NCBI GenBank assembly: GCA_016235245.1
Contig: JACRLO010000027.1
Location: forward strand, 1-64,000
Source of the DNA: Nitrospirota bacterium
GTDB lineage: Bacteria; Nitrospirota; Thermodesulfovibrionia; Thermodesulfovibrionales; UBA6898
Reading direction: 5' to 3'
Length of the DNA: 64,000 nucleotides
Positions 6,760 through 20,551 of this stretch are shown piece after piece. The position numbers and the translations under genes were made by a program. Each line of letters starts with the position of its first letter. Positions within the stretch are counted from its first letter, which is position 1. The notes under the pieces were generated by a model. It worked only from the letters and a program-made list of their open reading frames with translations, ran no database searches and had not been told where the DNA came from.

Positions 6760-7836
6760 TTAATTTCTCCCTCTGACCGATGGGTTGTTTACAATTCTGA
6801 TGATCTCTGCGGAAATATCGGAAAGCGGAAGGATCTTCTCCACGCCGCCGTTTTTGATCGCCTCTGCGGGCATACCGAATACCACAGCCGTCTCTTCAGA
6901 CTCCGCTATAGTATACCCCCCCTGCGTTTTAATATCCAGCATCCCGTGCTTGCCGTCATTGCCCATGCCGGTCAGGATCACACCCATGGAGGCAATGCCG
7001 TAAAGCTCGGCAACCGACGACATCATATGGTCAACGGAGGGGATGTATTTATCTTCAAACCTGCCCTCCTTAAGCGATATCTGTTTTTTGCTCCCCCGCC
7101 TTTTCAGGCTGAGATGCTGCCCCCCCGGACAGATATAGACAGTCCCTGCCTCGATGATATCACCCTCCGCCGCTTCCCTGATCCTGACATGGGACATCCG
7201 GTCGAGTCTCTCAGCCAAAGGAGCGGTAAAGCCCTTCGGCATATGCTGGCTGATGACCATGGCAGCCTTGAAATCAGAAGGCAGCCGTGTCAGAATGATC
7301 TGCAGCGCCGCAGGACCTCCGGTAGAGGAACCCACCGCAACGATCTCGATATCATGCCTGCCCGTCTTGCCTTTGCCCGCCTCAACAACCTCTTCTTCCT
7401 CTTCCTGATCAAGCAGTTCGAGGTTCTTGCTCAGGATATCAAGCCTGATATTCTTGAGGCCTTTAATCTTTCTGAGAAGATCCTTTTCAATGGTCTGGAG
7501 TTCGATCGATGCACGACGCGTCGGCTTTGCAATGAAGTCAACCGCGCCAAGCTCAAGAGCCTTGAAGACCGTCTTTGAATCGGCATGAGACGTAACCATG
7601 ATCACCGGCGTCGGCCGCTCCCGCATAAGCCACCGGAGGAAACTGAATCCGTCCATACCCGGCATCTCGAAATCAAGGGTGATGATGTCAGGCTGCAACC
7701 GCAGGGTCTTTGCCATGGCATCAATACCGTCAGTAGCAATACCTACTACCTCAAGGGTATTGTCTTCCTCAAGGATCTTCTTCATCGTCTGCCGCGTGTA
7801 TGCTGAATCGTCTACAATAAGAACCTTTGTCTTCAT
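6760..7836 (-). CDS. cheB: CheB: chemotaxis response regulator protein-glutamate methylesterase
   Basis: A 358-aa protein with a REC domain (1-125, phospho-acceptor D55 in TLDFEMP) joined by an acidic linker (EEEEEVVE, ~145-152) to a methylesterase domain. The catalytic triad is visible: S171 in VGSSTGG, H198 in SQHMP and D294 in GMGNDG. It removes methyl groups from (or deamidates) the two MCPs of this operon and so sets their adaptation. Its ATG overlaps the cheR stop by four bases. Length and motifs are those of a complete enzyme. Confidence 0.95.
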   Translation of the reverse strand: MKTKVLIVDDSAYTRQTMKKILEEDNTLEVVGIATDGIDAMAKTLRLQPDIITLDFEMPGMDGFSFLRWLMRERPTPVIMVTSHADSKTVFKALELGAVDFIAKPTRRASIELQTIEKDLLRKIKGLKNIRLDILSKNLELLDQEEEEEVVEAGKGKTGRHDIEIVAVGSSTGGPAALQIILTRLPSDFKAAMVISQHMPKGFTAPLAERLDRMSHVRIREAAEGDIIEAGTVYICPGGQHLSLKRRGSKKQISLKEGRFEDKYIPSVDHMMSSVAELYGIASMGVILTGMGNDGKHGMLDIKTQGGYTIAESEETAVVFGMPAEAIKNGGVEKILPLSDISAEIIRIVNNPSVRGRN

Positions 7837-8696
7837 TTATTCCCCATAGTGCCGTTCGGCTTTTGATAGACCATATCGTTTTTCAGATGCTTCAGGGTAA
7901 AGGCGGTTGAGATATTGATCAGGGACTCTGCATGGCCCAGAAGCAGATATCCGCCATCAACAAGTCTGTCATGGAAGTTCTCAATCACGCGCCGCCGGGA
8001 GGCATTGTCAAAATAGATCAGCACGTTCCTGCAGAAGATGACATCCATCTTCCCGAGAAACTTTGACTTAAACGGATCGAGCAGATTGAGATAACTGAAA
8101 TTCACATGTTTCTTGGCCGCATCGCTGATCTTGAAAGAACCATCTTCTTCGACGAAATATTTGCTCATGAAATAGGGTTCTGTTGTCCGAAAGGAGTTTC
8201 TGCGGTACACACCGCGCCGCGCTGTCTGAAGCACCCGCTGGTTGATATCACTGCCGTGTACCTCAATATCCCATCCGTGAAAATGCCCCTTTTCATTGAT
8301 AAGCATGGCTATCGTATAGGGCTCCTCTCCGGTAGAGCACCCTGCCGACCAGACCCTGAGCGTTTTCTTCTCCCGGTTGACGGTCCTCAGTTCTTCAAGG
8401 ATCTCTTCACTGAAAGCCTTGAGCTGGTTCTGTTCCCTGAAGAAATAGGTTTCATTCACCGTAAGCACATCCATGATCGCCGTAAGCTCTTCCTCTGCCC
8501 GCTTGTCATAACGAATAAACCGATAATAATCCCTGAAATCGCTCAGGTGGTGATTCCTGATACGGCGCGAAAGCCTCTTTTCAAGAAGATAGCGGGAAGT
8601 ATCGTCAAAATACAGGCCGCAATAGTCCTTAATGATGTCCCGGATCAGGCGGAAGACATCTTCAGGAAGAGGAATAATCTCTTCTTGCTCAAACAC
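7833..8696 (-). CDS. cheR: CheR: chemoreceptor protein-glutamate methyltransferase
   Basis: A 287-aa SAM-dependent enzyme with the small N-terminal all-alpha domain (10-80) and the Rossmann domain carrying the SAM loop VWSAGCSTGEEPYTIAM. DVIFCRNVLIYFD is the typical acidic strand. It methylates receptor glutamates, opposing CheB. It overlaps cheB by four bases and the HEAT-repeat gene upstream by eight, so translation is tightly coupled. Neither MCP here ends in an obvious CheR-binding pentapeptide, so docking probably occurs on the receptor body. Confidence 0.95.
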   Translation of the reverse strand: MFEQEEIIPLPEDVFRLIRDIIKDYCGLYFDDTSRYLLEKRLSRRIRNHHLSDFRDYYRFIRYDKRAEEELTAIMDVLTVNETYFFREQNQLKAFSEEILEELRTVNREKKTLRVWSAGCSTGEEPYTIAMLINEKGHFHGWDIEVHGSDINQRVLQTARRGVYRRNSFRTTEPYFMSKYFVEEDGSFKISDAAKKHVNFSYLNLLDPFKSKFLGKMDVIFCRNVLIYFDNASRRRVIENFHDRLVDGGYLLLGHAESLINISTAFTLKHLKNDMVYQKPNGTMGNK

Positions 8697-10482
8697 CCAG
8701 TATCTCCTCTACCGCCTTAATTACCGTAGGATCTTCTTCGGTATCAAGAAGTCTTTCAAGCTCAGTCCGAACTTCAGCCAGGCTATGCCTGCCCAGTGCT
8801 TTCACCGCGGCGATCCTTGCAGCCCAGTCTGGGTCCCGCAGAAACGGAACAAGACGGTCCGTTACTCCCTCAAACTCCGCCAGCGCAGCGATAGCTGTCC
8901 GTTTCACTTCGTCGTCTGCAGAGGTAAGCATGCCTGATATAGCGTTGCACGCTTCCTCGCCTCCCACAGCCTTCAGTGCCTCAATCGCTGTTGTGACCAC
9001 AAAACCGCTTTCGTCGTGCAACAGAGGCACCAGGATAATTATTGAGTTTCTGTCTTTGAGCATGCCAAGAGCCCTGGCAGCGGACACTCTCACGAAATTG
9101 TCAGGGTCGACGGTAAGTATGGTAAGCGAATCAATAATGCCCTCGCCGCCGATCGCACCCAGGCTTAACGTCGCGGAGATCCGGATGTCAGGGTCCTCAT
9201 CGGTAAGCGCATACTTGAGGTAACGAACAGCCTCTTCCGTCCCAATCTGGGAAAGAGCTTTCACAACCGCTTTCCTTACCGCCACCTTCTCGTCCTTTAA
9301 CGCAAACCCGAGGTCCTTCACCGCACGATCGGCCTTCATCTTTCCCAGAAGACGCGCAACATTTCTCCTCAGCACAGGGGAATCCGATCTGAGCATTGCG
9401 AGAATTTCATGGATATCCAGAGAATACTGCAGCATGCCAAGGGCATCAACAGCGGCCTCCTGGACATCTTCGTATGGATCAGCAAGACGTTTTATGAGCA
9501 TGGGCACCGCTTCGGACTTGTTCAGTCTGGCGATGCTCCTTGCGGCGATGGAACGCACGTGTCCGTCTTCGTCGTTCAGAAGTTTCGCAAACATGTCATA
9601 GTACACCGGAGAAACAATTTCGCCTGCCACTTCGGCAATAAACCTGAGCTGATGGGCATTGCCCGAATCAAAAAGTCTGAGGAGTGAATCCGGTCGATCT
9701 CTGCCGATAAATACAAAGGCCCCCTTTACGTCATCCGCATATTCTTCCTCGTGGGATATGTCAAGGAGCGGCCCATATGCAGCCTCGTCCTTCATCAGCC
9801 CGAGCATGAGGATGGCAGAAACTCTCACTTCATTTTTATTCGACCAGGCATGGGCAATAAGAAGATCAATCGCCTTATCACCAAGTATCCTTCTGAATTC
9901 TGAGGTAATGACCTCGGCGCCGAGCCCGTTGTGATACATCTTTTCAATAGTCCGCAAGGCCTGTTCCTGGATGTTTTTTGAAGTCTCCTGGAGCAGCGCT
10001 ATTACCGGTCCGAGCGTTGCAGGGTCAGCAAGCATGCCGAGGGCCTTGAGCACAGGCTCACGAAGCGGCTTCCGTTCCTTCAATGCCTCAAGCATAAGCG
10101 GCAGGGACCTGCTGTCCATCTGCTCTCCCAGCACATCAATAATAAACTTCCTCACATCCCTGTTGGAGGTCTTGAATCCCTCAATGAGAAATGGTGTGGC
10201 CTTCCTGCCGAGTTTAATAAGCGCTTCGATGGCAGAATTCCTTGCGCCTGCATTTTCTTCAATATACAGGAGCTCGATCATGCCCCGGATATATTGATCC
10301 AGGCCATACTCCTCAAAGAGGATATCGACAGCCGACTTCCTGACACGCCAGCTCACATCCGTCATTGCCTTGATAAGAAGCGGTATATATTGGGCATCTT
10401 TCCGGCCTCGCATCTGCTCGACTGCCCGGCGCCTGACCTCAATATTGTTGTCGTTATTGAGCTGTTTTTCCAGTTCCTGCAC
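8689..10482 (-). CDS. HEAT-repeat scaffold protein
   Basis: A 597-aa protein built from about 18 HEAT/PBS-lyase-type helical repeats, seen as recurring VRxxAVxALG patterns (VRKAVVKALSQIGTEEAV, VRVSAARALGMLKD, AAVDALGML) from residue ~15 to the C-terminus. There is no signal peptide or enzyme motif. Such solenoids are protein-protein scaffolds. The gene overlaps the cheW upstream (28 bases) and cheR downstream (8 bases), so it is an integral operon member. A likely role is to assemble or tether the array or its output, but this is inferred. Confidence 0.85.
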   Translation of the reverse strand: MQELEKQLNNDNNIEVRRRAVEQMRGRKDAQYIPLLIKAMTDVSWRVRKSAVDILFEEYGLDQYIRGMIELLYIEENAGARNSAIEALIKLGRKATPFLIEGFKTSNRDVRKFIIDVLGEQMDSRSLPLMLEALKERKPLREPVLKALGMLADPATLGPVIALLQETSKNIQEQALRTIEKMYHNGLGAEVITSEFRRILGDKAIDLLIAHAWSNKNEVRVSAILMLGLMKDEAAYGPLLDISHEEEYADDVKGAFVFIGRDRPDSLLRLFDSGNAHQLRFIAEVAGEIVSPVYYDMFAKLLNDEDGHVRSIAARSIARLNKSEAVPMLIKRLADPYEDVQEAAVDALGMLQYSLDIHEILAMLRSDSPVLRRNVARLLGKMKADRAVKDLGFALKDEKVAVRKAVVKALSQIGTEEAVRYLKYALTDEDPDIRISATLSLGAIGGEGIIDSLTILTVDPDNFVRVSAARALGMLKDRNSIIILVPLLHDESGFVVTTAIEALKAVGGEEACNAISGMLTSADDEVKRTAIAALAEFEGVTDRLVPFLRDPDWAARIAAVKALGRHSLAEVRTELERLLDTEEDPTVIKAVEEILGV

Positions 10483-10939
10483 CGTTATCCTCCAGCAGTT
10501 CCTTTGATTCCTTTAACCATATCTTCTCCTCAGACGTCAGAAGGTTGTCTATATTAAGCAGTATGATGATCTGATCTCCCTTCTTGCCCAGGCCGGTCAG
10601 ATACTCTGTCTTGAATCCCTTGAAAATTGAGGGAGAAGGCCTGAGGTCTTCAGGGTTCAGCCGCAGAATCTCCCTGATTTCGTCAACCAGAAAGCCAATT
10701 TTTTCCTCGCCGTATCTGACGAGGATAATCCGTTCCTTCTTGCCGGAAGGCTTCATCCCGAATCTCAGCCTGAGATCCATGACCGGTATGACAGCTCCGC
10801 GCACGCTCATGACCCCGGTAAGAAATCCCGGGAGTCCCGGGATGGAAAAGATCTTCTGCACCCGGAGGATTTCAAGCACACGGGAAATATCAATGCCAAA
10901 AATATCCCCGCCTATATTGAATATCGTGTATTTGGACAT
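10454..10939 (-). CDS. cheW: CheW-type adaptor (first of two)
   Basis: A 161-aa CheW domain: start FNIGGDIFGIDISRVLEILR, GFLTGVMSVRGAVIPVMDLR in the first half and IGFLVDEIREIL in the second. It bridges CheA and chemoreceptors. Its ATG shares a base with the stop of the MCP gene (10939), so it is probably dedicated to that receptor. A C-terminal tail of ~25 residues beyond the domain is Glu/Lys rich. The second CheW-type gene sits beside the other MCP. Confidence 0.92.
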   Translation of the reverse strand: MSKYTIFNIGGDIFGIDISRVLEILRVQKIFSIPGLPGFLTGVMSVRGAVIPVMDLRLRFGMKPSGKKERIILVRYGEEKIGFLVDEIREILRLNPEDLRPSPSIFKGFKTEYLTGLGKKGDQIIILLNIDNLLTSEEKIWLKESKELLEDNGAGTGKTAQ

Positions 10940-12963
10940 CAGCTGATCTTGAAGGCCTCCATCTCCTGTTTCAGGGCCTCGATTTCCCTAAAGAGCGTTT
11001 TAAGAGAATTTGAAACATCCTCCATGTTCTGCATGGTTACCGTCCCGATGCCATTGATATTCTCCATGGCAGCGATGACCTCGGTGTTCACCTTCTTCTG
11101 ATTCGACTCATTTGTATTGATCTGGTTAATCCGCTCATTGGCAAGTTCAATATTCCTTGTTATAAGTCTTGTTCCTTCCGCCTGTTCTCCTGCGCCGCGT
11201 TTGGAAAGTTCAGCAACCTCTTTCACGTCCCCGACGCCCTCAAGAAGATAACTCAGCGCGTTTTCCTGCTCCTTGGTGGACTTGGTTACGCTGACAATCA
11301 CCTTTTTAATGTCGTCTATTGCAGAGGTAATCTGTCTCAGCCCGAGCGACTGCTCCCCTGTTGCCCTCTCAATCGCCTTGGTCATGTCAGAGGACTGTAT
11401 AGAAGCATTCAGGATGTCCCGCAGAGCCTCTCCGACCTTCACCACAAGAGTATTGCCGTCTTCCACTTTCAGTTTTGCATTATCAACCGAATAAACGGCA
11501 TCCTTGATATCCTTCTGGATGGTTTTGACAATCCCGCCGATCTCCCGCGTTGAACTTGCGGTGCGCTCGGAAAGGGCGCGGATCTCATCTGCCACAACCG
11601 AGAAGCTCTTCCCATGCTCCCCTGCCTGGGCGGCAAGGATGGCGGCATTAAGGCTGAGCAGGTTCGTCTGCTCAGTAACATCCCGGATGACCGAGAGCAC
11701 CTTCTCAATATCGACCGATCTGGCTCCAAGCCGCTGGATGATCTCGGCGGATTTCTGTACCTGGCCGGAAATACTTTCCATGCCTTCAACCGCATTGACC
11801 ACGGACATCATACCAACACCTGAGGTGATTTCCTTCACCCTGTCGGCAATTGCAGAAGAATCGATAGCATGCTCTTCGACCTCCCGCACTGAGGCGCCCA
11901 CCTCTTCAACCGAAGCAGAGGTATCCTCTACCGCAGACAGGGCCTCTGAAGAACTGGCCGATATGGACTTCGATGCCTGGGACATCTGAAGCACCACGGA
12001 ATACGAATCCTCGGTCGAACGGAATAGGCGCTGTGTCTGGGACGACATCTCCTCGGCCGTTGCCTTCATCTGCAGCAGGGAAGTCACATTCTCGGTCGAA
12101 AAATTCAGAAGCTTTTCGATGCTGTCGCTGACCTCTTTTTGGGACTTATTCGCCAACTGTATCGAGCGGATACCGTTTTTGACGGCAACCGCCTGACTGC
12201 CTATCCCTTCGCTTGCGATGCGGTACGTATGGTCCACCTGCTTGATAGCCATACCTACATTGACAGCCGTTTGGCTGATCCTCTCAATCATCTGGGAGAG
12301 GCGTAGTTCGAGCACCCTGACGCCCTTCGCAATGCTGCCGATCTCGTTATCGCCAAGGTCAGGTATTGCCGCCGTAAGATCGCCGTTGGTGATCTTTTCT
12401 ATGACGATATTGAGCTCATGCACAGGCTTCTTGATGTTCTTCTGAAAAAAATAGATCATGACAAATCCAAGCATTACCAGCGCAATGCCCTGGTAAAGGA
12501 TAATTATGAGCATACTTTTTCCGATATTGTCATTAACGGTCTTGCCGGTAAAATGGAGTGAAACCTCTCCGAGCTTGGTATTGCCTGAATTGACCGGCGC
12601 GGTGATTACCATGGCCTTTTTAAAATAAAAGGGGTTCAGGGTACTGATCTCGGCGTCATCCGTCTTGATCTTCTCCCTGGCAACTTTGCCCTGGGCGTCA
12701 AAGATATGGATCGAGGTAATCTCCTCGTCCCTTGATACTTCATCGAGGTACGTGTCAATGAGCGCAAAATCATAGCTCAGGAGCGGCGCCATGCTCACCC
12801 CTGCCATGATCGATGCCGCCCGGTTCATGCGCATGGTAATCTCTTCAAGAAACGATGAGCGAATGTAGAGCATGAAGGCTACCGTACCGACAGACTGTAC
12901 CGCCAGCAGCACGACAAAGACCGTTGCGACAAATTTGACTGTTATGGATTTTCCGAAAATCAT
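10939..12963 (-). CDS. Methyl-accepting chemotaxis protein (second receptor)
   Basis: A 674-aa transmembrane receptor. TM1 is about 12-32; residues 33-150 form a periplasmic sensor domain with no cysteine pair; TM2 is about 150-170; a HAMP domain follows (172-225) and then the MCP coiled-coil. The signalling tip near residue 431 reads NLLSLNAAILAAQAGEHGK. Most MCPs have AAIEAARAGE here, so a Glu and an Arg of the trimer contact are replaced by Leu and Gln. The other MCP of the operon has the same changes. It begins four bases inside the end of the binding-protein gene. The ligand is not evident. Confidence 0.92.
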   Translation of the reverse strand: MIFGKSITVKFVATVFVVLLAVQSVGTVAFMLYIRSSFLEEITMRMNRAASIMAGVSMAPLLSYDFALIDTYLDEVSRDEEITSIHIFDAQGKVAREKIKTDDAEISTLNPFYFKKAMVITAPVNSGNTKLGEVSLHFTGKTVNDNIGKSMLIIILYQGIALVMLGFVMIYFFQKNIKKPVHELNIVIEKITNGDLTAAIPDLGDNEIGSIAKGVRVLELRLSQMIERISQTAVNVGMAIKQVDHTYRIASEGIGSQAVAVKNGIRSIQLANKSQKEVSDSIEKLLNFSTENVTSLLQMKATAEEMSSQTQRLFRSTEDSYSVVLQMSQASKSISASSSEALSAVEDTSASVEEVGASVREVEEHAIDSSAIADRVKEITSGVGMMSVVNAVEGMESISGQVQKSAEIIQRLGARSVDIEKVLSVIRDVTEQTNLLSLNAAILAAQAGEHGKSFSVVADEIRALSERTASSTREIGGIVKTIQKDIKDAVYSVDNAKLKVEDGNTLVVKVGEALRDILNASIQSSDMTKAIERATGEQSLGLRQITSAIDDIKKVIVSVTKSTKEQENALSYLLEGVGDVKEVAELSKRGAGEQAEGTRLITRNIELANERINQINTNESNQKKVNTEVIAAMENINGIGTVTMQNMEDVSNSLKTLFREIEALKQEMEAFKIS

Positions 12964-13811
12964 TTGACTGCGACAGCCTTGTTCGCCTCGATGATCTTCG
13001 CACCCTTGGGCCCTTTTACAAAGTCGATAAACGCCTTTGCTTCACCTTTCGGCTCCCCCTTCACCACAAGGTTCATATTCTTGATCATCCGGTATTTGCC
13101 GTTTCTGACATTCTCCGCCGTTGGTGCAACACCGTCGAGCTTCAGCGGTACGATAGCCCCTGCTGAATCGTCAGTAGCGATCGTATCGGTAAAGCCGATC
13201 GTAAACGGCCGGCCGGAGAGTATCTTGTTCATCTCAGGATGGGTCGGCACGACCACCGCAGAGGCGGGCTCTTTCAGGTCCTTGAAACAGGCAATATGCT
13301 TTCTTACCGCTTCCTTGGTTGCATCGGCCTCAGGCCTTGTCAGCAGCAGGATCGGTTCGGCAGGTCCACCTACTTCGCTCCACTTCACCGTCTTGCCGGA
13401 ATAAATTTTGCAAACATTTTCTGAAGAAATATCCACAATCGGTACGCTTTTGTTCACACCCAATACATTGGCCACACGTGCAATCTCGATTGCAGTGATG
13501 CCAAGCTTCTTCTCCTCTTCCTTCAGGGGGCGTGACGCCATACCTATGTCCACCTTGCCCTCTGCAGCTGACATGATGCCGCCCCTCGTCTCAATTGATT
13601 TCTGATTTACTTCAATCACCGTGTTTTTATGTTCAGCCATAAAGGCCTTGGCCAGTTCCGTGCCCAGGGAGATCATCCCTCCCGCACCGGCTATTCTGAT
13701 CTTCTCTTCGGCAAAAGCAGAGCCTGTGAACATCACAAGCGCCGCGATCATGCCGAGCGCAATCTTTTTCGTTAATCCCTCATATGGGGTCCTTGACACA
13801 CCTGTTTTCAT
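12960..13811 (-). CDS. PstS-like periplasmic substrate-binding protein
   Basis: A 283-aa exported protein: a twin-lobed binding protein of the phosphate/anion type. Residues 1-34 form a signal peptide (IALGMIAALVMFTGSAFA). The mature part opens with IRIAGAGGMISLGTELAKAF, typical of the PBP-like phosphate-binding group, and contains VDIGMASRPLKEEE, where the second ligand loop lies. AAAGGAGGACGGAGAAG before the ATG is a strong ribosome binding site. No ABC permease or ATPase gene is present. Lying between two MCP genes and overlapping the second by four bases, it most likely serves as a sensing protein rather than a transport component. The ligand is unproved. Confidence 0.85.
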   Translation of the reverse strand: MKTGVSRTPYEGLTKKIALGMIAALVMFTGSAFAEEKIRIAGAGGMISLGTELAKAFMAEHKNTVIEVNQKSIETRGGIMSAAEGKVDIGMASRPLKEEEKKLGITAIEIARVANVLGVNKSVPIVDISSENVCKIYSGKTVKWSEVGGPAEPILLLTRPEADATKEAVRKHIACFKDLKEPASAVVVPTHPEMNKILSGRPFTIGFTDTIATDDSAGAIVPLKLDGVAPTAENVRNGKYRMIKNMNLVVKGEPKGEAKAFIDFVKGPKGAKIIEANKAVAVK

Positions 13812-13838: not shown

Positions 13839-16697
13839 TTATATACCTATCTTGGACATCATCATGCGTATCGTGCTGTAATCCTCATCCTCCGCGTCAG
13901 TAAACCCGGTGTAGTTTTCATAGATCGCCTTCAGCACCGGTTTGGTCTCGGGATCATCTTCCTTCAGCCCCATAAGAACAGCCTTGAGATCCCTGCTGAT
14001 CTGCGGGTCAAGGTCAGCTGAAGCCGTAAAATTGAATTCAGGGATGTCTTCCGAGAGCTTGAGCACCCTGATGCCCATATCCTTATGCATGATCGCTGCA
14101 CTCTCTTTGACGCCCCCGGCGTCAAAATCCCCGTTGAGGACCGCCTTCAGGACATCGTCGTGATGACCGAGGTAATTGTAATACTGCAGATCCTTGAGAT
14201 CTATTCCCTCAGCAAGCAGCATTGCCCTGGGCACAACATGGCTCGACGTCGAATTGATATCACCAAAGGCAAAGGAACGTCCCTTGATATCCTGCAGTGA
14301 ATTAATGCCGCTGTCACTTTTTGTGATGATCACCGCCTTATGAAACGGCTTGCCGTTATTGAGGGCCTTCACAAGCACCTTTGCACCGAATTTTACATGG
14401 GCAATGCTATAAGTCGACGGCCCCATAAAACAGAATTGGGTGACACCCTGCTCAAGGTCCCTGATCGCCCCCTGAAAATCCACCGCAACCTTCAGGTCTA
14501 TCTTTCGCTTCATTTTTTTGCTCAGATAGTCGGCCAGGGGGCTGAAATGCTTGAACATAAGCGCCGGCGTCTCAATCGGAACAATGCCCATCCTCAGAAC
14601 ACCGCCGGCAGACATGGCCTGTTCGCCGGCAAACCGGAACCGCTCCATCTCCGTAGAGATCAGTTCCGCATCCTTGTGCAGCTCCTTGACCAGCTGGTTG
14701 AGCTTGAAGGAGCGGTCCTTGTTCTCCCGGGGAATGTCCTTGATCTTCTCGACAGAGGACCAGATCTGGTTCGAACCGATCTTCTGCTCATTGATCGCAC
14801 GCGAGATCTGCTGGCTCTTGTCAGAGACAACTTCTACGGCCTGTGAGATCTGTTTGCTGTTTAAGGACTGCTCATTCGTTGCCGTCCGTACATGGGTGGA
14901 GATATCGCGCATTTTTTCGGTTGACGTCTTGATGAGCTGTATGCCGCTGAACTGCTCGGCCATGGCATTCGTAATCTGTCCTACCATGCTGAGCACCCGC
15001 TCCATAGCTTCCGATACCAGAGAGGTTGCCTTTGACTGCTCCGCCGTAGAACGCTCTATCGCGGCAGCCATCGCAGAGGACTTCGTAGAACTTTCCACAA
15101 TCTTTCTGAGCGCATCGGCAGCTTCCTGTGTCACCTTGAACCCGGTCTCAACCGACTTCAGCCCGTCCTTCATGGCATCGATGGCATCGCCCACTTCCTG
15201 CTGCACGGACTGGATAAGGAGACCGATCTCCTGGGTTGAGATCGACGTGCGGTCAGCCAATTGTTTGATCTCGTCAGCAACAACAGAAAAGCCCTTGCCA
15301 TGCTCGCCTGCCTGGGCAGCAAGGATTGCCGCGTTCAGGGCCAGGAGCGTCGTCTGGTCAGTAATGTCGTCGATCACGGTCAGGATCTGGCCGATCTCTT
15401 CTGATCTGCCCCCCAGTTTCTCGATATATCCGGCAGTCTTTTCTACCGATATTTTAATGTCCTGCATGCCCTGTATCGTCTTGCCGATCGATGTCATGCC
15501 AAAGGTCGAGGCGTCGCGCTTGACCTGTTCGGAAAGCGTTGCAGACTCCTTTACCCGGTGATCGACCTCTTTTACCGAAGCGGCAATCTCTATGATCGCA
15601 GCCTGAGTCTCCTGAGCAGCACCCACAAGCGCGGCAGAGTTGTTCGAAACCTCCCTGCTCGTGGCATAGAGCTGTTCTATGGACGAAGAGGTCGCCTCCA
15701 CCGCAACCGACAGGTCCTGGGTGCTGTTGGTGATCTCGGCAATGCTCGTAACCATCTCTTCCATGGACGCGGCAGTCTGTTCCGCTGATGCTGCCAGGCC
15801 ATCGGTACCGTCTGCAATATCGGATATGGCTGCATTCATCTCTTCGATCGAAGATGAGATGTCTGCGATCGCCTCAGTCTCCAGCGCCGCACCTTCGACA
15901 ATTTTTCTGGACTCGCCCTCCACTTCCACAACAACATGATTTACCCGTTTTGTAATGTCCTTGATCCTTCTCAGAATATCGGACAGGGAGAACATGGACT
16001 GTTTGATCGCCCTGCTTGCCCTGCCGATTTCATCGGTGCTTCTGATCTCGACATTAAAGGACATGTCTCCCTCTGACAGCTTCTGGGCCGCATCTTCAAC
16101 AGACTTGACCGGCTTGATCACCATCCGTCTGATCATGAACCAAAGCACGGCACTGAAAAAAAGTGCTGCCAGGATCGTCAACGTGATAACGAGAACAATA
16201 TATCCGAGCGCTTCCTTATATTCTTTTTCTATCGAGAACCCTATCTTCACCGCACCAAGTACGGCAGGGTCTGTTGCATGACAGGTCTTGCACCGTTCCT
16301 CATTTATGAGCGGTCTGTAATAGGTCATCTTCTTGACATCGCGGACGGAAAAGGATTTTTTCGTCTCCGACAGCTGCTTCATCACGGCACTCTCGCGGAT
16401 TTTGCTGTCAGCGTTAAAGGCATGATGACCGTCATAATGAAGAACCACAAGTTCCTCAATGTTTTTTATATCCTTCAACTCCTGCATCATAGATTTTGTC
16501 ATGTCCGCTTTTCCCTCAAGCATGGTGCGGGCTATTTCCTGGGAAATAATCGACGCCGTCGAATCGAGACTCGATTCGGTTATACTGTAGAGGCTCTTTT
16601 TCTCTATGGTCAGCACCATAAAACCGGCCGACAGGATCCCCACGACCAGCAAAATCATCACCAGGGTGAGGATCTTCAGTTCAAGCCTTTCTTGCAT
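13839..16697 (-). CDS. Heme-type chemoreceptor fused to a PhnD-like binding domain
   Basis: A 952-aa fusion. The start at 16697 is chosen because AAAGGAGGGCGT precedes that ATG; an in-frame TTG eight codons earlier has no such site. TM1 is about 8-30. A periplasmic domain (31-163) carries one c-type heme motif CKTCH (136-140), as in Tll0287/DUF3365-type sensors. TM2 (~165-190), HAMP (190-242) and the MCP coiled-coil follow, with a tip near residue 449 reading LLALNAAILAAQAGEHGK. From ~700 to the end there is a full PhnD-type phosphonate-binding fold (MGIVPIETPALM, FCFMGPSTYSIA, LNGDFDAGGVKES). By topology this domain lies in the cytoplasm, where such folds are rare. A redox signal and an anion signal could meet in this protein. 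Confidence 0.9.
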   Translation of the reverse strand: MQERLELKILTLVMILLVVGILSAGFMVLTIEKKSLYSITESSLDSTASIISQEIARTMLEGKADMTKSMMQELKDIKNIEELVVLHYDGHHAFNADSKIRESAVMKQLSETKKSFSVRDVKKMTYYRPLINEERCKTCHATDPAVLGAVKIGFSIEKEYKEALGYIVLVITLTILAALFFSAVLWFMIRRMVIKPVKSVEDAAQKLSEGDMSFNVEIRSTDEIGRASRAIKQSMFSLSDILRRIKDITKRVNHVVVEVEGESRKIVEGAALETEAIADISSSIEEMNAAISDIADGTDGLAASAEQTAASMEEMVTSIAEITNSTQDLSVAVEATSSSIEQLYATSREVSNNSAALVGAAQETQAAIIEIAASVKEVDHRVKESATLSEQVKRDASTFGMTSIGKTIQGMQDIKISVEKTAGYIEKLGGRSEEIGQILTVIDDITDQTTLLALNAAILAAQAGEHGKGFSVVADEIKQLADRTSISTQEIGLLIQSVQQEVGDAIDAMKDGLKSVETGFKVTQEAADALRKIVESSTKSSAMAAAIERSTAEQSKATSLVSEAMERVLSMVGQITNAMAEQFSGIQLIKTSTEKMRDISTHVRTATNEQSLNSKQISQAVEVVSDKSQQISRAINEQKIGSNQIWSSVEKIKDIPRENKDRSFKLNQLVKELHKDAELISTEMERFRFAGEQAMSAGGVLRMGIVPIETPALMFKHFSPLADYLSKKMKRKIDLKVAVDFQGAIRDLEQGVTQFCFMGPSTYSIAHVKFGAKVLVKALNNGKPFHKAVIITKSDSGINSLQDIKGRSFAFGDINSTSSHVVPRAMLLAEGIDLKDLQYYNYLGHHDDVLKAVLNGDFDAGGVKESAAIMHKDMGIRVLKLSEDIPEFNFTASADLDPQISRDLKAVLMGLKEDDPETKPVLKAIYENYTGFTDAEDEDYSTIRMMMSKIGI

Positions 16698-16707
16698 ACG
16701 CCCTCCT

Positions 16708-17406
16708 TTATCCGATCTCAATGTTCATCGCATCTTCAGCGCGAAGAACCGAAATGAACCGCTTTTCGAGAATGACAATGCCCTCGATATATTTTATTTC
16801 CGCCTCGTTCAGGTGGGCAGGGGGCTCAATTACCCGGTCCCTGGCAACACTGACAACGCCCATAACCCTGTCGATTGTTGCGCCGATAAACCCCCGGGGG
16901 CCGGCGATAATCAGTATTTTCGCTTCCCTGCCACCTCCGGGATTGTCCTCAGTTCCATATTCGGGAGCCTCTCCCGTGGCCTTGAGATTCAGACGTGCCT
17001 TCAGGTCAAGGACCGGTATGATCTTCCCCCGGAGCGACGTAATGCCGATGACATAGTCCGGCATGGTCGGCACCTTTGTCATCTTCTGCAGCCTGAGGAT
17101 CTCTTCCACCTCTGCGACCTTAAAGGCAAATTCCTCTGTGCCGATGCTGAAGGTAAGAAGCTCAACCTGACCATCGTCAACTTCCTGCATATTATTGCCG
17201 GACAGTTCCTTCTCATTGACCGCCGTTTTTTTCGTCTCAGGTTCGGGAGACTGAACTTCTTCGGGAAGAGGCTGTTCCTGTGTCTCTGTCTTCACCTCTG
17301 TCGCGGATAATGGCGCAACCGATGAATCCTGGGGAGCAGACTGGTCATCCGGCCGCTTCCCTGCCTGCTGCTCCTTCGCCTTTTTCCTAATTTTCGCTAT
17401 ATCCAT
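16708..17406 (-). CDS. CheW-domain protein with long charged N-terminus
   Basis: A 232-aa protein. Residues 1-80 are charged and Gln/Pro/Glu rich (KIRKKAKEQQAGKRPDD) without a fold I recognise. Residues ~83-230 form a CheW domain (LLTFSIGTEEFAFKVAEVEE, VIGITSLRGKIIPVLDLKAR). It should link CheA to the heme MCP encoded 11 bases downstream. The extension is unusual for CheW and may bind another array member such as the neighbouring ATPase, whose stop overlaps this gene's start by 20 bases. Confidence 0.88.
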   Translation of the reverse strand: MDIAKIRKKAKEQQAGKRPDDQSAPQDSSVAPLSATEVKTETQEQPLPEEVQSPEPETKKTAVNEKELSGNNMQEVDDGQVELLTFSIGTEEFAFKVAEVEEILRLQKMTKVPTMPDYVIGITSLRGKIIPVLDLKARLNLKATGEAPEYGTEDNPGGGREAKILIIAGPRGFIGATIDRVMGVVSVARDRVIEPPAHLNEAEIKYIEGIVILEKRFISVLRAEDAMNIEIG

Positions 17407-18205
17407 GCAAACTCATCTCCCGGGCAGCCCCGTCGATTAACGAAGCGTCTATGACGCCTGCTTCATGGGCAAAACCGTCAAGCAGTGCAGAGGTGGCGAT
17501 ACTGTTAATCAGGCGCGGCACCCCTTCGGAATAGGTGTGAAGAAGTTTCAGCGCCTCATCAGTGAAGAGCAGCTGTTCCCTTCCCGACGTCTTCAGCCGG
17601 TGCTGGACATACTCCCGTATCTCGTCCTCGCCAATGGGGCCGAGATGATAATAGAGCCCTATGCGCTGCTTCAGCGGAATATACGCCTTATGGTTCAGCC
17701 TCTTCCTGAGATCGGTCTGTCCCACAAGGATAAGACTGAGAAGGTTTGTGTTATCAAGCTGGAAATTCGTAAGCAGTCTGATCTCCTCAAACGTGTCCTT
17801 GCTCGGGATGAGCTGGGCCTCGTCGATGATGATGACGATGGAGGTGCCTGCCTCATACTCCTTGTATACTTTTTCATAGATCGCATCCAGCAGGTCAGAT
17901 TTGTACACAGAGGGGATATCAATATCGAGGCGTTTTGCAAGGGCACGCAGGAACTGGGCCGGCGTGAGCACCGGGTTGATGATCGTGACGATCTTGTACC
18001 GTTCGCCCAGGATATCCATCAGCGCCCTGGTCAGCGTTGTCTTTCCGCAGCCTACATCGCCGGTCAGCAGGATCAGCTCCTTCTCTTCAACCGCATACTG
18101 GAGCCGCGCAAGGGCCTCCTCATGGCTTCGGCTTAAAAAGAGGAACTTCGGGTCCGGCGTCTTGGTAAACGGCCGCGCAGTCAGGCCGTAAAATTCCTCA
18201 TACAT
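17387..18205 (-). CDS. ExeA/GspA-type AAA ATPase
   Basis: A 272-aa ATPase of the ExeA/MshM group. It starts MYEEFYGLTARPF, the family hallmark, followed by Walker A GDVGCGKTT (49-57), Walker B IVIIIDEAQ near 124-132 and a sensor-2 region with GVPRLINSI. Relatives act with type II secretion or type IV pilus machinery, or as Tn7-TniQ-like helpers; none of those partners is encoded here. The gene overlaps cheA (8 bases) and cheW (20 bases). This suggests the ATPase drives or gates an output of the pathway, for instance pili or export, which is inference. Confidence 0.85.
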   Translation of the reverse strand: MYEEFYGLTARPFTKTPDPKFLFLSRSHEEALARLQYAVEEKELILLTGDVGCGKTTLTRALMDILGERYKIVTIINPVLTPAQFLRALAKRLDIDIPSVYKSDLLDAIYEKVYKEYEAGTSIVIIIDEAQLIPSKDTFEEIRLLTNFQLDNTNLLSLILVGQTDLRKRLNHKAYIPLKQRIGLYYHLGPIGEDEIREYVQHRLKTSGREQLLFTDEALKLLHTYSEGVPRLINSIATSALLDGFAHEAGVIDASLIDGAAREMSLHGYSEN

Positions 18206-20186
18206 AGGCCGCCCCCTTCTGCTTCAGAAGCGATTCATCGATCAGCGACTCAATATCAAGGACAAGGATCACCTCGTGCTTGCCGATCTCAGCGGCCCCG
18301 GCAAAACCCCTCAGTTTTTTCAGGTACTCACCGAGGGTCTTGATAACAATCTCGTGCTGGCCGAAAAGCTCGTCGATCAGAAGACCGACCTTTCGTTCGC
18401 CGAATCCCACTACGACCGCAAAAGAGCGATCGTTCTCATCGCCCGGAAGACCCAAAAACGTGCTGACCCGTATCATCGGCAGCATCTCGCCCCTCAGATA
18501 AATTACCTCTTTCCATTCGATGGTCTGGATTTCGTTATGGTTCACGATGAGCGTCTCGGACATGGAAGTAAGCGGTACGGCAAACTTCTCGGCGCCAACC
18601 CTCACGATAAGCGCTTTAATGATTGCAAGGGTTATCGGCAGTGTCACCATGAAGGTTGTGCCGACATTCGTCCTGGTCTCAATATCAGCAAAGCCGCCAA
18701 GGGCAGAAAGCTTTTCCTTGACAACATCCATGCCGACGCCCCTGCCGGACATCTCGCTGGCCACATCCTTCGTGCTGAAGCCCGGCGCAAAGATAAAATT
18801 GATGATCTCCTTGTCTTCGAGTTCAACGTCGTCATCGATAAGCCCTTTTTCAATCGCCTTTTTACGCACCTTATCGAGGCTCACTCCGCTGCCGTCGTCC
18901 TTCACCTCCACAATTACATGGTTGCCCTTCTGCTATGCCTTAAGGGTGATGGTCCCCTGTTCCTTCTTTCCCTTGGCCTTCCGCTCCTCGGGCATCTCTA
19001 TGCCGTGGTCGATGGCATTTCTGATCAGGTGCATAAGCGGGTCCACGATCTCTTCTGCAAGAAATTTGTCCAGCTCCGTATCTTCTCCATACATCTGAAG
19101 GTCTATCTGTTTGCCGATCTCCCGTGAGTAGCGTCTGACAATCTGCGAAAGCCGCGCAAAGATCTGTCCGATGGGGACCATGCGTATTTCAAGGACCTGG
19201 TCCTGGAGTTCTGCCAGTCTCCTCTCCAGGGTCTGGGAGATCTTGTGAATATCATAGACAAGAGATGTGTGGCCGTAGTTATCGATGAGCTCTGTGCCGA
19301 TCCTCTTGACCGCCCCCTTGGCCAGCGTAAGCTCGCCGATGGTATTGAGGATTCGATCGAGCTTTTCAATATCAACACGGACCGTTGTCGACGTGCTTTT
19401 GAGATGCGTGTCCTGAATCTTCTGGCTGTCTGCGGAGGGCACTGCCGCAGGTGCTGCCGGTAAACCCTTCGGTGCAGAGAGCACCTCGATCTCGACATTA
19501 ATCTCCTTCTTCAGATCCTCAAGGCGCCGGAGGCTGCCAAACATCAGATTAAAACCTATGGAGCCGTCCGGCACATTCGACGATGTGGGGAGCGTCGAGA
19601 TAAGCTCACCCATTGTCTTGATCGTCTTTGTCATCGACTCAAGCGCCTTGTCGAAAATATCGAGGCTAAAGACCGCCTTGGCGAGATAGACGCCCTTGCC
19701 TTCCTTGATATTGGCTTTAAGCCTGTGCTCCTCATATTCAGAGAGCACCCTCATGATGGCAGGGTCAATGACACTCTCGGCCGGAGCTGCCGCACCCTGT
19801 CCTTTCTGGCCGCTCCTGAAGTTCTCAATGTCCGTGAGGTACGCGGCAATATCATCATTTTCCTGCTCGTTGCCGACGCCATCCACAAGACTGCGGAGGA
19901 TATCGAGGTTTTTAAAAAGAAACGAAACAATAGCGTCGGTCACATCGACCTTGCCGAGCCTCACATCGTCCATAAGCGCCTCGAGGGCATGGCTCAGCTT
20001 GGAGATGCCCTGGAGTCCAAAGAGGCCTGACACACCCTTCAGGGTATGCATTGCCCTAAAGAGGGCATTGATGGTGTCCGGGTTGATGCCGGTGGTAACC
20101 GAATCCTGTATCTCAAGAATCAGGTTCTGTGATTCCTGCAGGAGATCTTCGGCTTCTGCAATGAATTCTTTCTTGGAGGTGCTCAT
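18198..20186 (-). CDS. cheA: CheA histidine kinase, interrupted by an in-frame TAG
   Basis: The frame encodes a 662-codon CheA split by one amber codon at 18935-18933. Before it: Hpt domain with H47 (FRAMHTLKG), linker, dimerisation helices (LDRILNTIGELTLAKGAV) and the ATP-binding N box (LIRNAIDHGIE). After it, in the same frame: VEVKDDGSGV (G1 box), the rest of the ATPase and a C-terminal CheW-like domain. The sequence around the stop is continuous with the family (TITLKA, stop, QKGNHVIVEV); an aromatic residue, usually Tyr, belongs there. A GTG at 18911 could restart the second part but lacks a good ribosome site. As read, the kinase would be inactive unless TAG is suppressed or is a sequence error. 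It overlaps cheY (4 bases) and the ATPase gene (8 bases). Confidence 0.9.
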
Positions 20187-20551
20187 GGGACCAGGATTTT
20201 CTTGATGATTTCCTGCAGCTCAGATGACTTGAACGGCTTCGTGACATAGGCAGTAGCGCCAAGGGCCATTCCGCGTTTTTTGTCCTCCTCACTCCTCTCC
20301 GTACTGACGATGATTATGGGGAGATGATTGTAGCGCGGATTGTTCCTCACAAAATTGATAAGCTCGAGGCCGTTGATGTCGGGCATGTTGATATCCGTAA
20401 CGATCAGGTCATACTCCTGCTGAGGCAGCATTTTCAGCGCCTCAAAACCTGACCCTGCCTCGACCGTCTCATAGTCACCAAGTTCGTCGATAACAGCCCG
20501 TATCAGGGCCCTCGTTGTAGCTGAATCTTCAACAATAAGAATGGTTTTCAC
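20183..20551 (-). CDS. CheY-type single-domain response regulator (second)
   Basis: A 122-aa REC domain with phospho-acceptor D53 (VTDINMP), acidic pair ED at 8-9, Thr in IVSTERSEED and Lys in VTKPFKSS. It lies immediately before cheA and overlaps its start by four bases. It is about as similar to the other CheY of the operon as one family member to another, not a recent copy. It is probably the primary phosphate acceptor of this CheA. Confidence 0.9.
   Translation of the reverse strand: MKTILIVEDSATTRALIRAVIDELGDYETVEAGSGFEALKMLPQQEYDLIVTDINMPDINGLELINFVRNNPRYNHLPIIIVSTERSEEDKKRGMALGATAYVTKPFKSSELQEIIKKILVP

Follow-up and report, generated by a model that had tools for sequence, protein, structure and literature searches.

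The 64,000-nucleotide stretch of DNA that we have analysed (the window) encodes a protein that is best explained as a transmembrane chemoreceptor with two sensory inputs, a heme domain outside and a PhnD-type binding domain inside the cell, a reading to which we assign a probability of about 70%. Its 952 residues begin with a transmembrane (TM) helix, followed by a heme-Cache sensor that carries CxxCH, another TM helix, a HAMP domain, an extended MCP hairpin and, last, the PtxB/PhnD-type domain in complete form. A preliminary description of this DNA had placed a CKTCH-bearing periplasmic domain, an MCP hairpin and a PhnD fold in one protein at positions 13839-16697; those limits are right, the strand is minus, and the parts do lie in a single 952-residue frame in the computed Pfam order, as listed below.

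13839-16697, minus strand: fusion receptor, complete gene, 952 residues plus stop (ATG at 16697, stop at 13841-13839)
16605-16673, minus strand: TM helix 1, residues 9-31 (hydropathy; helix 2-60 in the AlphaFold model)
16227-16550, minus strand: periplasmic heme-Cache sensor, residues 50-157 (Pfam Mcp40H-20_sensor; relatives 3b42/3b47)
16521-16523, minus strand: Met59, probable distal heme ligand (54/55 relatives; His144-Met60 in GSU0935, PMC8396549)
16278-16292, minus strand: CKTCH c-type heme motif, residues 136-140 (both Cys and the His invariant in relatives)
16134-16211, minus strand: TM helix 2, residues 163-188 (hydropathy)
15993-16133, minus strand: HAMP, residues 189-235 (Pfam)
14631-15977, minus strand: MCP hairpin, residues 241-689, tip E465, 224 residues per side (Pfam, model, arm arithmetic)
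14601-14630, minus strand: short flexible linker, residues 690-699 (pLDDT under 50 at 683-698)
13842-14600, minus strand: PtxB/PhnD-type binding domain, residues 700-952 (Pfam, NCBIfam, AlphaFold model, fold matches)
14244-14252, minus strand: S816-T817-S818 oxyanion motif, equivalent to PtxB S130/T131/S132 (alignment, PtxB literature)
14160-14162, minus strand: H846, equivalent to PtxB H160 (82/85 rows)
14034-14036, minus strand: F888, where PtxB has its capping Tyr, Y208 (Phe in 85-row alignment, 81/85)

Pfam scores for the window protein exceed the cut-offs for Mcp40H-20_sensor (PF21563; 45.8 bits against 27, residues 50-157), for HAMP (41.8 against 25, residues 189-235) and for MCPsignal (144.6 against 34.6, residues 407-570), the last two together identifying an MCP, and also for Phosphonate-bd (PF12974; 207.8 against 27, residues 703-940), where positions 1-242 of the 242-position profile are covered. 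NCBIfam assigns the protein to subfamily TIGR01098 (142.5 bits, cut-off 112.05); for the PhnD equivalog TIGR03431 the score of 141.3 bits falls below the cut-off of 261.1.

The protein had been presented initially as a lone, odd fusion. What we find instead is a conserved receptor, widespread in Nitrospirota, of which the heme domain is the replaceable part. The search for other MCP-PhnD fusions that the preliminary description had proposed gave 84 distinct fused frames, all from Nitrospirota. Matches to the full-length chain (from query residues 1-5 to 945-952) number 42, in 39 of 61 related genomes and at 44-100% identity, a single one of them having an internal TAG, and a long-frame match occurs in about 60 genomes of a 296-genome Nitrospirota sample; named relatives are Nitrospirota MAGs, several labelled Thermodesulfovibrionales. 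A false join of two genes near 14600, through misassembly or misreading of the sequence, might be imagined from the unrelated origins of the fused domains and from the stop in cheA of the same assembly, but the same frame and length recur in 39 genomes and the spacing between hairpin and PhnD domain is near constant over 80 frames, so that we regard such an error, whose probability is vanishingly small, as excluded.

Beyond Nitrospirota, a search of 195 Myxococcota genomes at E 1e-45, run with no positive control there, returned no match, and at the same threshold 398 Pseudomonadota genomes returned 14, all free frames of 293-347 residues and none a fusion. Fused copies were found in Nitrospirota only in a scan of 84,980 species, which used two short patterns and so reaches close relatives only; phyla other than these three are covered solely by that scan. 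In a phylogeny of PhnD domains one label change is required for the long fusions, with a support of only 69; they group with the short ones and with a few free copies from Nitrospirota, and we do not take this as proof of a single origin. Loss of the domain is possible, since relatives without it exist, one receptor ending at 699 residues (genome G027) and another, 40% identical, at 702 (genome G002).

Hydropathy and the logic of the hairpin lend strong support to a predicted cytoplasmic location of the PhnD domain, in agreement with what had been proposed from topology at the outset. Just two segments of the window protein reach TM-level hydrophobicity, at about residues 9-31 and 163-188, and past residue 200 the highest 19-residue mean is 1.16. 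Of the 80 fusion frames whose tip could be recognised, just two contain a 19-mer above 1.6 late in the chain, within the PhnD domain in one (L137) and near the hairpin tip in the other (L037); hydropathy thus rules out a third TM helix ahead of the PhnD domain, for the window protein as for these 80 frames. The hairpin, which sits between TM helix 2 and the PhnD domain, must itself be cytoplasmic because it needs to meet the CheW and CheA of its operon. Characterised relatives are mostly periplasmic or transport-linked binding proteins, and it could be imagined on that account that the PhnD part is exported through some unusual topology and works outside, as in ABC transport. A signal peptide is, however, impossible in mid-chain, a third TM helix is lacking, nothing resembling the TM or signal sequence that export of an ABC-transport binding protein calls for is found between hairpin and PhnD domain, and the hairpin preceding that domain requires the cytoplasm, making export highly improbable.

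The geometry of the hairpin bears on the same point. Residue E465 in the AGEHG tip is 224 residues from the HAMP end (241) and 224 from the end of the last helix (689), corresponding to arms of ∼32 heptads each if continuous (sequence arithmetic, with helix limits from the AlphaFold model), and arms of equal length would return the C-terminal one to HAMP. Tip and PhnD domain are 229-236 residues apart in every long form with an identifiable tip motif and 139 apart in short hairpins, and this constancy within each hairpin type implies that the PhnD domain always ends up at the membrane end. Prediction of the full-length structure, as had been suggested, was useful for the helix limits; with a pTM of 0.35 the placement of the PhnD domain relative to HAMP is unusable.

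Comparison of the variants establishes that the outer domain is replaceable and that PhnD domain and hairpin travel together, retention of the PhnD domain in receptors devoid of a periplasmic part adding to the case for its cytoplasmic location. Three long-hairpin receptors (L164, L168 and L176; 833-843 residues) have adjacent TM helices, no periplasmic domain and a PhnD domain. A short type of 640-655 residues (L130-L133, from genomes G230, G158, G058 and G044) combines near-adjacent TM helices (by hydropathy in L130, L131 and L133, from its sequence in L132) with a hairpin 13 heptads shorter, accompanied by the tip-to-PhnD distance of 139 residues, and a C-terminal PhnD domain, again with no periplasmic domain. 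Other families have a periplasmic domain that lacks CxxCH (L135, L139, L160 and L161). Because receptors without a periplasmic domain still hold the PhnD domain, we take the latter to be the fixed input and the heme domain to be the one that varies; the G027 receptor is the reverse case.

In the window protein the outer domain is predicted to carry a covalent heme c, with His140 and probably Met59 as ligands. Residues C136, C139 and H140 are invariant in 27 of 27 unselected full-length relatives, and in rows picked for having CxxCH the Cys-Cys-His set is present in 55/55 and Met59 in 54 of these. The domain matches PDB 3b42 (E 1.4e-4), and its match to Geobacter heme sensors is clear; the heme ligands of GSU0935 are His144 and Met60 (PMC8396549), and Met59 sits where the Met60 ligand predicts. 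Heme loading, and with it the outside heme input that had been suggested earlier, is something that we infer, supported by Pfam membership, the invariant CxxCH and the near-invariant distal Met. The family has recently been named sCache_heme, with signalling members that bind NO and with Nitrospirota rich in such domains, according to a preprint whose accessible text does not mention phosphonate (PMC12889525). GSU0935 and GSU0582 of Geobacter sulfurreducens (sCache_heme, PF21563) resemble the window protein in having a Cache domain with CxxCH and distal Met between two TM helices, then HAMP and a hairpin; their cytoplasmic part is described as HAMP and MCP only, whereas here a ∼250-residue PhnD-type domain follows the hairpin (PMC8396549, PMC12889525).

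Modelled alone, the PhnD domain gives a pLDDT of 95.9 (AlphaFold, AF2). Among solved structures phosphite-bound PtxB matches it best, at 30% identity and a Z of 29.8 (rmsd 2.8 over 247 residues), and ArrX, XAC2383 and PhnD are further top folds. The oxygens of phosphite are bound in PtxB by Y55, Y100, S130, T131, S132 and H160, and the P-H faces Y208, itself held by D22 (PMC5700983). By alignment, in which the row named PmPhnD_5jvb is Trichodesmium PtxB, these eight residues become, in the same order, F741, H786, S816, T817, S818, H846, F888 and I708, so that the STS-H oxyanion motif of PtxB is present and its cap, Y208 stabilised by D22, is not. In 85 rows (84 fusions and the window protein) Ser816 is found in 85, His846 in 82 (Gln or Asn replacing it in a few fusions), Thr817 in 70, Ser818 in 71, Phe888 in 81 and Leu, Ile or Val at 708 in 85, while the Y55 and Y100 positions have drifted to Phe and His/Gln in the fusions. 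Compared with randomly drawn sets of columns from the domain, conservation is higher at the four oxyanion positions (P 0.008) and likewise over the full pocket of eight (P 0.009). In the short receptors L130-L133 STG stands in place of STS, and both PtxB Tyr positions are retained.

Because the oxyanion end is kept while the Tyr/Asp cap over phosphite has become Phe/Leu, a small oxyanion or phosphorylated compound is the probable ligand, as judged from sequence; specificity for phosphite is not supported. The C-P lyase gene product PhnJ was not found in a search of the genome, rendering a role in phosphonate nutrition less likely. The likeness to PtxB (5o2j, 5jvb) thus lies in the fold and the STS-H anion motif, the difference being that PtxB is a free periplasmic ABC-transporter protein whereas the present domain is fused, predicted to be cytoplasmic and altered in its cap.

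A precedent for other uses of the fold exists in ArrX and AioX, where a PhnD-family fold serves sensing and not transport, although these are separate binding proteins, 22-24% identical to the domain here, that act on partner sensors. A narrower form of the two-input explanation, which we put forward as a tentative possibility, is that the PhnD domain reports specifically the cell's load of phosphate or of an arsenate-type oxyanion, in the manner of its phosphate-, arsenate- and arsenite-binding relatives ArrX and AioX. Both were solved with arsenate, phosphate or arsenite and are among the closest folds, and free homologues of the ArrX type adjoin an MCP and kinases in the same genome; on the other hand, the fusion domains stand apart from these free ArrX-like copies in the tree, and their cap residues match neither those copies nor PtxB. 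Free PhnD-type proteins, one of 575 residues with two PhnD domains, are seen at L134 (G000:C6:116500-131500), together with an MCP, a histidine kinase, an NtrC-like regulator and the start of an apparent TAT-exported molybdopterin oxidoreductase (by eye), possibly a locus for oxyanion sensing and respiration. A frame at L140 (G012:C57:21900-24600) fuses a membrane part that by eye resembles cytochrome-biogenesis proteins to PhnD-type sequence.

It is also conceivable, if rather unlikely, that the PhnD domain has lost the ability to bind a small ligand and now forms a cap at the receptor foot that is structural or offers a docking site, to a partner protein in the cytoplasm for instance. Two of the PtxB anion contacts (Y55 and Y100) are changed, relatives without the domain exist and no ligand-linked neighbour gene is conserved, all compatible with such a cap. 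The pocket is nevertheless conserved above the domain average, with Ser816 in all rows and His846 in 82/85, and receptors that have almost no periplasmic part keep the PhnD domain and would otherwise have no obvious sensor, observations that favour a binding function.

The fusion is usually found within the same conserved che operon, whose order in most loci that are long enough is response regulator, CheA, AAA ATPase, CheW, fusion, a PstS-like protein in some, a second MCP, CheW, HEAT-repeat protein and CheR. In the window these are, together with a CheB-like protein of the same cluster:

20183-20551, minus strand: response regulator (Pfam)
18198-20186, minus strand: CheA, cut by an in-frame TAG at 18933-18935 (Pfam)
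17387-18205, minus strand: AAA ATPase (profile match)
16708-17406, minus strand: CheW with an N-terminal extension (Pfam)
12960-13811, minus strand: PstS-like binding protein (PBP_like_2), likely signal peptide (profile match; in part of related operons)
10939-12963, minus strand: second MCP, no PhnD domain (Pfam)
10454-10939, minus strand: CheW (Pfam)
8689-10482, minus strand: HEAT-repeat protein (Pfam)
7833-8696, minus strand: CheR (Pfam)
6760-7836: CheB-like protein (by eye)

The TAG in cheA is codon 418, where a 93% identical relative (L080) has Tyr and no stop, and reflects a genuine nonsense mutation or else a mistake in assembly. The PstS-like gene between the two MCPs occurs once in some related operons, twice in L080 and is absent from many, and since only part of the operons have it, it gives no indication of the ligand. 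With its own CheR and, by eye, a CheB-like protein in the cluster, adaptation is plausible. FliG lies on another contig. The corresponding operon of a 1.7 Mb genome (L142, G027:C7) contains the 699-residue receptor without a PhnD domain and has no second MCP.

Computation shows the arrangement of the domains, the topology with two TM segments, the conservation of the operon, the fold and the retained oxyanion residues. According to the two-input explanation that we prefer, heme c in the periplasmic Cache domain would read the redox state or nitric oxide outside, with oxidation, reduction or NO at the heme moving TM helix 2 and HAMP. The PhnD-type domain, beside HAMP at the foot of the hairpin, would close around its small oxyanion or phosphorylated compound, and closure of the lobes would alter packing at the foot of the helix bundle, biasing CheA. 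From these steps we infer the direction of signalling and its integration: CheA would sum both inputs, and the kinase output would mirror the signals from outside and inside.

Periplasmic binding proteins normally act outside the inner membrane, feeding transporters or receptors, and the present case suggests a transport-type binding protein turned into an internal sensor. A cytoplasmic sensor domain behind the MCP hairpin is familiar from CZB-type chemoreceptors such as TlpD and McpA. The CZB domain, in contrast, is small, binds zinc and is unrelated to the two-lobed PhnD fold (CZB receptors are treated in PMC13370339). A Treponema CheWS paper was considered as a precedent and set aside, as it concerns a CheR-like domain on CheW, a different fold. 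Heme receptors of this type and the PhnD family are both already known; in the open-access literature we found no paper that joins a PhnD-type domain to a chemoreceptor, nor a cytoplasmic PhnD-type sensor on a chemoreceptor tail.

We consider it somewhat better than an even chance that these proteins form a phylum-wide lineage in which a solute-binding protein of the transport type, permanently fused and lying in the cytoplasm, is the main sensor of an oxyanion or phospho-metabolite within the cell. An outer domain, of the heme or another kind, would be exchangeable on top of it, so that one receptor would compare inside and outside. If so, confinement of such a fold to the cell interior in a conserved family of receptors would represent a new use of it, and would offer a directly testable case of one receptor weighing redox state or NO outside against an internal pool of anion or metabolite. 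Nitrospirota are mostly uncultured, and the ligand of a receptor in a conserved che operon would help to tell what these cells respond to.
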